Source of the DNA: Citrifermentans bremense
GTDB lineage: Bacteria > Desulfobacterota > Desulfuromonadia > Geobacterales > Geobacteraceae
DNA length: 64,000 nt
Direction of reading: 5' to 3'
Assembly (NCBI RefSeq): GCF_014218275.1
Contig: NZ_AP023213.1
Coordinates: 744,001 to 808,000, forward strand
The translations under genes were made by a program, and so were the position numbers. The notes below the pieces were generated by a model. The model saw nothing but the letters and a program-made list of their open reading frames with translations, ran no database searches and was not told where the DNA came from. Positions 10,881 through 11,749 of the stretch are shown in pieces (position 1 is the stretch's first letter; every line of letters begins with the position of its first letter).

Positions 10881-10940
10881 TCTTTTTCCCCCTAGGACGT
10901 TATGCGTTTATTACAGCCGAAGCCGGATTTTGTATAAAAA

Positions 10941-10967
10941 AAGGCCGCGGGGGTCCCCCACGGCCTT
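10941..10967 (-). terminator. Attenuator terminator upstream of the aminotransferase
   Basis: On the minus strand a GC-rich hairpin (AAGGCCG and CGGCCTT outer arms, GGGGG/CCCCC inner arms, one mismatch) is followed at once by seven U residues. It ends about 56 nt before the aminotransferase ATG and lies downstream of the leader peptide, so it is positioned to stop transcription before the structural gene. Confidence 0.75.
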
Positions 10968-11001
10968 CAGTTTCTTGTTTTCTGAATCAGCAGTGGCGGC
11001 T

Positions 11002-11067
11002 CTAGAAGGGTCTGGCCGCTGCTGCCGCGTGGACGGAGCCACGAGATGTAACGCTGTTAGTATACAT
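11002..11067 (-). CDS. Putative alanine-rich leader peptide (attenuation)
   Basis: A 21-codon frame, MYTNSVTSRGSVHAAAAARPF, with five consecutive Ala codons (GCG GCA GCA GCG GCC at 11028-11014) using three different codons. GAGG lies 4 nt before the ATG. The Ala codon region can pair with 10988-11000 (CAGCAG-CGGC against GCCG-CCA-CTGCTG), and an intrinsic terminator follows at 10967-10941. This is the classical arrangement of amino-acid attenuators such as the his, leu and ilv leaders. A TTGACA element lies at 11103-11098, but with 17-bp spacing its -10 (TATTTG) would start transcription too close to the leader ATG, so the promoter is uncertain. Confidence 0.6.
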   Translation of the reverse strand: MYTNSVTSRGSVHAAAAARPF

Positions 11068-11179
11068 GACGCCTCAAATAGCATGAGGATATCTGGATGT
11101 CAATGTTTTTCATGAATCTGGAGATCTTACTCCGGAGGACCCGAAAAAAGTCCCTCTCCGTAAGGGGGATTCAGGGTGA

Positions 11180-11749
11180 TTAGCGGGAGCTCTGCAAGGA
11201 TACGGTGAGACGCCCGTCGGGGTCGCGCCACCTGAACCAGCCGGAGGGACGCTCCAGCTTCACCCAGTCCTCCTCGACTTCCATAACCTGCACCAGCTGG
11301 TCCCGGGTAAGCGAGGCGATTTCCGCCGCATCTTCTGCGGGCGCACCCTTCAGCGAGTACCACCCCTTCTTGAGCCCAGGGAGCACGCGGACTGTGCGGC
11401 CGGGAAGGAATTCGTCCCAGCTCGCATAGTCCCAGCCGCGTTGCTGCTCCAGCCACCCCTGCCGTCCCGCGTCGTCGAGCGAGAGCCTTGTCCATCTGCC
11501 GCGCCGCTCGCTTGCGGCCAGAAGCGGCTCCAGTCCGTCGCCCGCCAACCGCGGCAGCGCAGCTGCGCTCTTTTCGGCGACACGCAAAAGCCCCGGCTCG
11601 CGGTAAAGCGCAAGGGGCTCCGGCTCCAGCGCCCCCCACTGCCTCAGCTTAAGGATGCCGCAGCCGCTATAGGGGCGCGGCGCGGGAGGGGCCGCGTAGG
11701 CCGCGCCTGCGGCAAGCGCTATCAGGAGCAGAGAGGCGGAAAGCCTCAC
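11180..11749 (-). CDS. Secreted SH3-like domain protein of unknown function
   Basis: 189 aa with a clear signal peptide (MRLSASLLLIALAAGAAYA). The mature part has short beta-strand-like blocks ending GWLEQQ and GWFRWRDPDGRL, which suggests two bacterial SH3-like repeats, as in envelope or cell-wall associated proteins. The GTG start overlaps the end of the glyoxalase-family gene by 4 bp (GTGA), so the two are probably co-translated. No specific function is recognised. Confidence 0.65.
   Translation of the reverse strand: MRLSASLLLIALAAGAAYAAPPAPRPYSGCGILKLRQWGALEPEPLALYREPGLLRVAEKSAAALPRLAGDGLEPLLAASERRGRWTRLSLDDAGRQGWLEQQRGWDYASWDEFLPGRTVRVLPGLKKGWYSLKGAPAEDAAEIASLTRDQLVQVMEVEEDWVKLERPSGWFRWRDPDGRLTVSLQSSR

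Follow-up and report, generated by a model that had tools for sequence, protein, structure and literature searches.

The window, by which we mean the whole analysed stretch of 64,000 nt from Citrifermentans bremense, carries on its minus strand a PLP aminotransferase gene that is preceded by a predicted promoter, a short leader open reading frame (ORF) and an intrinsic terminator (Table 1). The aminotransferase scored 766.7 bits against the PRK06855/NF005334 family, above the curated cut-off of 443, and its gene is present in a single copy in this genome, where the next match was 26% identical over part of its length. Directly 3′ of the gene there is a hairpin followed by a T tract. The upstream neighbour on the same strand (11180-11749, 189 aa) was without a Pfam or NCBIfam match; many related genomes have, 5′ of the leader, a relative of its GWLRWRD-like C-terminal end, so the gene pair looks conserved.

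Table 1. Positions of the leader features and the aminotransferase gene in the window
Feature	Position	Strand	Remarks
−35 box, TTGACA	11098..11103	−	TTGAC-N17-TATTYG type promoter in 44/45 family leaders
Extended −10 box, TG-C-TATTTG	11075..11083	−	TGnTATnnn conserved, n variable
Predicted +1	~11068	−	Coincides with the leader ATG or lies 1 nt ahead of it
Leader ORF, MYTNSVTSRGSVHAAAAARPF, 21 codons	11002..11067	−	Stop codon TAG, 11004-11002
Control codons GCG GCA GCA GCG GCC (five Ala), switch segment 1	11014..11028	−	0/5000 shuffles; third position varies in relatives
1:2 hairpin, Ala codons with segment 2	10988..11027	−	MFE folds; without covariation of its own
Segment 2 (CCGCCACUGCU), 5′ strand of the antiterminator	10989..10999	−	Equivalent of ACCCGCUGCC of other genera, covarying with segment 3
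Antiterminator hairpin (2:3)	10956..10999	−	Inner helix UUCAG 10986-10982 / CUGAA 10970-10966
Intrinsic terminator stem-loop (3:4)	10941..10967	−	Stem 10967-10956 / 10952-10941
U7 tract, where the attenuated transcript is predicted to end	10936..10942	−	Sequence
Aminotransferase gene, PRK06855/NF005334, 436 aa	9570..10880	−	Regulated gene in the proposed switch; alanine-aminotransferase-like

The initial annotation had described a 21-codon frame with five consecutive Ala codons ahead of the aminotransferase gene, and this frame is indeed present (11067-11002); when the window leader was dinucleotide-shuffled 5000 times, no five-Ala ORF arose before the terminator. The intrinsic terminator with seven U that had been placed before the aminotransferase ATG was likewise recovered (stem 10967-10941), and we counted 55 nt between its last U and the ATG (10880). 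The Ala codons had also been proposed to pair with a segment just downstream, in line with the MFE fold of the leader (−64.5 kcal/mol, z = −2.87), in which nucleotides 11027-11022 and 11019-11015 are paired with a downstream stretch ending at 10988.

Conservation of the leader was analysed in 107 regions upstream of aminotransferase orthologs, 47 belonging to the window's family and 60 to a further 21 families of the class. A terminator-like hairpin was detected in 99 of these 107 regions and a terminator together with a leader ORF in 95, and 90 of the 95 leaders contained at least three consecutive Ala codons, compared to 1.6% of shuffles. The share of Ala among leader residues was 31%, versus 11% in shuffles. 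Within the window's family, a run of at least three Ala codons was present in each of the 45 leaders that could be scored, and the Ala-run leader was conserved in 19/21 families of the class. The check suggested in the initial annotation, an alignment of relatives, was passed: across most of the class, Ala run, stem and terminator are retained and covary.

The leader peptide itself exists in two forms. Type A peptides, present in the window's genus and two relatives, end soon after the Ala run, with a stop codon that either precedes segment 2 or coincides with its end. Type B peptides, found elsewhere, contain a core of ARA-xx-AAA followed by further Ala, with the stop codon shortly after segment 2. 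The Arg codon of the ARA core of type B leaders was CGA in 35/35 sequences, third base included (alignment A2 columns 4-6, e.g. L053). At the codon level, the two central Ala codons of the class-wide alignment had GC at positions 1-2 in 35/35 rows and three to four different bases at position 3. Of the Ala codons in leaders, GCA accounted for 40% within the family and 32% in the other families, versus 6% in the aminotransferase genes of the family, a preference that fits control codons since a rare synonymous codon is expected there. Furthermore, a one-base loss in each of two leaders (L020 and L029) rewrites the peptide past the first Ala run and leaves the run and the RNA segments intact; this favours codon reading and RNA pairing over the peptide sequence.

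The predicted promoter lies close to the leader ORF. In 52/52 Geobacterales leaders with a recognised promoter, the ATG follows the end of the −10 box by 6-9 nt, and the Geobacterales leader is therefore predicted to be leaderless. A Shine–Dalgarno sequence downstream of the −10 box was present in none (0/52) of them. For the other families, this distance is 11-43 nt, mostly >20, and a Shine–Dalgarno sequence occurs there in 31/40. The initial annotation had assigned a Shine–Dalgarno sequence to the window's ORF as well. A GAGG (11075-11072) is indeed found immediately before the leader ATG. Since this motif overlaps the predicted −10 box, it is probably absent from the transcript; outside the genus it is not conserved. 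The window's leader mRNA is thus best described as a predicted leaderless mRNA, and we infer that a short 5′ UTR was lost in Geobacterales. A transcript starting further upstream would restore the GAGG to the RNA.

Both folding and covariation revealed an antiterminator (10999-10956) that shares the 5′ arm of the terminator, the two helices being mutually exclusive. It was missing from the initial annotation. The shared arm, segment 3, has two alternative partners: segment 4, which gives the terminator, and segment 2, located near the ORF end, which gives the antiterminator. Class-wide, 92% of the antiterminator cells in alignment A2 were paired and 27 changes were two-sided, and the covariation score was 0.319 versus 0.239 for shuffled alignments (0 of 500); slid registers scored ≤0.107. 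The corresponding values for the terminator were 96% of cells paired, 28 two-sided changes and a score of 0.320 versus 0.226. One position triple changes jointly in the two helices, from C-G-C to U-A-U. When terminator arms were swapped between families, the 2:3 duplex weakened from −17.0 kcal/mol with the own arm to −14.8 kcal/mol, and 0/100 swaps did as well as the own arm. Family leaders folded with segments 2-3 free have a common outer antiterminator helix, and the inner helix of type A leaders is retained with changed bases, as exemplified by UUCAG:CUGAA, UAGAAA:UUUCUA and UCAAAA:UUUUGA.

With a simulated ribosome mask on any of the five Ala codons, the antiterminator formed with −13.8 kcal/mol up to segment 3, whereas a mask at the stop codon left −4.5 kcal/mol and the terminator formed. 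The terminator is more stable than the antiterminator, so antitermination would have to be kinetic, as in other attenuators. Some of the structural results count against an attenuator. No significant signal was obtained for antiterminator pairing that continues into the loop of the terminator (34 of 200), and in the window's genus segment 3 has an alternative partner around the first Ala codons. RNAalifold applied to the Ala region alone found almost no covariation, which means that the 1:2 hairpin rests on energy. At the sequence level, the leader has what characterises his/leu/ilv attenuators, namely an ORF with cognate codons, a terminator before the gene and an exclusive antiterminator.

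Orthologs of the aminotransferase are encoded in 253 of the 277 genomes of the class, and a covariance model built from the type B leader matched at E ≤ 0.01 in 240/277, the weakest of which may be chance matches. Gene positions were compared for 63 strong matches; 60 of these were located 18-194 nt 5′ of the aminotransferase gene on the same strand, and two of the remaining three were ahead of a second paralog. Other lineages of the phylum likewise carry the element ahead of this gene (e.g. G297, G447 and G551); weak matches elsewhere in the phylum that covered mainly the terminator half were left out of the count. The window's match was the only convincing one in its own genome, as a second match to the RNA model (26 bits) was the terminator behind an apparent phosphoglycerate dehydrogenase gene and thus a false positive. 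Some members of the order lack the leader here, which counts against the attenuator. The aminotransferase orthologs of L059, L060, L062, L063 and L068 have no Ala leader at all, and sister genera retain it; these are lineage-specific losses. In another genome (L057 / L209), a leader-model match (G184:C101:44844-44965) lies 1.1 kb 5′ of the aminotransferase gene rather than adjoining it, and repeated sequence is visible directly 5′ of the gene.

Could the conserved leader be something other than an attenuator that reads Ala codons? High G+C content and GCN repeats ease the formation of Ala runs, and there is weak, sub-threshold Rfam similarity to alphaproteobacterial sRNAs, so one might suspect a constitutive or unrelated terminator, belonging for example to the upstream gene or to a small RNA gene, next to a frame that is Ala-rich by chance. 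This is highly improbable given the 1.6% expected from shuffling against the 90/95 leaders observed, the conserved promoter between the upstream gene and the terminator, and the covarying antiterminator that excludes the terminator. We rejected the low-scoring sRNA matches as similarity between G+C-rich hairpins. Strong conservation of a leader 5′ of a metabolic gene would also be expected of a metabolite-binding riboswitch or a T-box that uses the same terminator. We give this equally little credence, since neither the window nor seven related loci matched an Rfam family above threshold and the conservation of the leader is coding-like.

Nascent-peptide arrest, in which the Ala/Arg-rich peptide would stall the ribosome on another signal and the RNA switch would read the stall, deserves slightly more weight and is still very unlikely. 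The ARA--AAA core is kept outside the window's genus and its Arg codon is always CGA in the 35 aligned sequences, but precisely this core is missing from the window's genus and two relatives, which keep the Ala run alone. The one-base losses in L020 and L029, which rewrite the peptide and spare the Ala run and the RNA segments, also argue against a role of the peptide sequence, and the varying third positions and the enrichment of rare GCA are as expected for tRNA sensing.

We therefore interpret the leader, with a probability of roughly 90%, as a ribosome-mediated transcription attenuator for which charged tRNA-Ala is the signal. Judging from the sequence, it very probably turns the aminotransferase gene on only when the cell is short of alanine. 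RNA polymerase would start at ~11068, and a ribosome would begin on the AUG at or beside the 5′ end. When alanyl-tRNA is plentiful, this ribosome would pass the Ala codons, reach the stop codon (11004-11002) and cover segment 2; with segment 2 covered, the 3:4 terminator would form and transcription would end near 10936. When alanyl-tRNA is scarce, the ribosome would stall on the Ala codons and cover segment 1, leaving segment 2 free to pair with segment 3 while segment 4 is still to be transcribed. This would block the terminator, so that the aminotransferase gene would be transcribed and alanine made from pyruvate.

For the enzyme itself, the nearest named curated family is the alanine aminotransferase PRK08363. 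Among PDB entries, it best matched 1xi9, a putative transaminase of archaeal origin, and 4cvq, the glutamate-pyruvate aminotransferase AlaA of E. coli. Family placement and PDB matches are consistent with an alanine-making enzyme, although they fall short of proof. The same genome also encodes an alanine dehydrogenase outside the window (G000:C1:3395749-3396858, TIGR00518 over the cut-off), which could provide another route to or from alanine. The aminotransferase may accordingly not be the sole source of alanine, which counts against the attenuator reading.

We lean towards a broader interpretation, in which an undescribed alanine-specific attenuator is found class-wide and is older than the class, and in which its leader mRNA in Geobacterales has lost the 5′ UTR and Shine–Dalgarno sequence, making the sensing ribosome load on a 5′-terminal AUG. 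The terminated transcript of ~133 nt might also have a role in trans, like that of rnTrpL in Sinorhizobium. If the attenuator operates as proposed, the alanine supply of Geobacter and its relatives would be set by tRNA-Ala charging, and the uncharacterised PRK06855 enzymes would be alanine aminotransferases open to assay. Leaderless and Shine–Dalgarno leaders of one attenuator would further provide a natural test of how ribosome loading affects attenuation.

Alanine is an amino acid one step from pyruvate, and we found no attenuator described for it. Leader-peptide attenuators of the classical kind are known for His, Trp, Leu, Ile/Val, Thr and Phe. The initial annotation knew of no alanine leader of this type, and our searches of Rfam and the open-access literature agree. 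No family, including T-box and other cis-regulatory families, scored above its gathering score in the window and the seven related loci, and the Trp_leader model had no match over the cut-off in 58 genomes of the class. None of the 5.39 million open papers searched yielded a description of an alanine attenuator, although priority is not certain beyond this set; the main text of one survey of attenuators names neither Geobacter nor alanine (PMC2965389).

The closest parallel in design is provided by hisL, leuL, ilvL, thrL and pheL of enterobacteria, which have the same succession of a cognate-codon ORF, a 1:2 hairpin, a 2:3 antiterminator and a 3:4 terminator with a U tract before a gene for the same amino acid (PMC1183508). 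The leader analysed here differs from them in that the amino acid is alanine, the sequences are unrelated and the Geobacterales leader is predicted to be leaderless. For the trpL leader of Sinorhizobium meliloti (peTrpL / rnTrpL), mapping showed that the attenuator transcript begins with the ATG of the leader peptide (PMC7298713). A similar position is predicted for the ATG of the ORF described here; trpL differs in responding to tryptophan, in belonging to another phylum and in its unrelated sequence. T-box leaders of alaS genes in Firmicutes likewise report tRNA-Ala charging, but they bind the tRNA directly and without a leader ORF, and a T-box match is absent here. Compared with these systems, the mechanism is known, whereas the amino acid is apparently new and the mode of starting leader translation apparently unusual.
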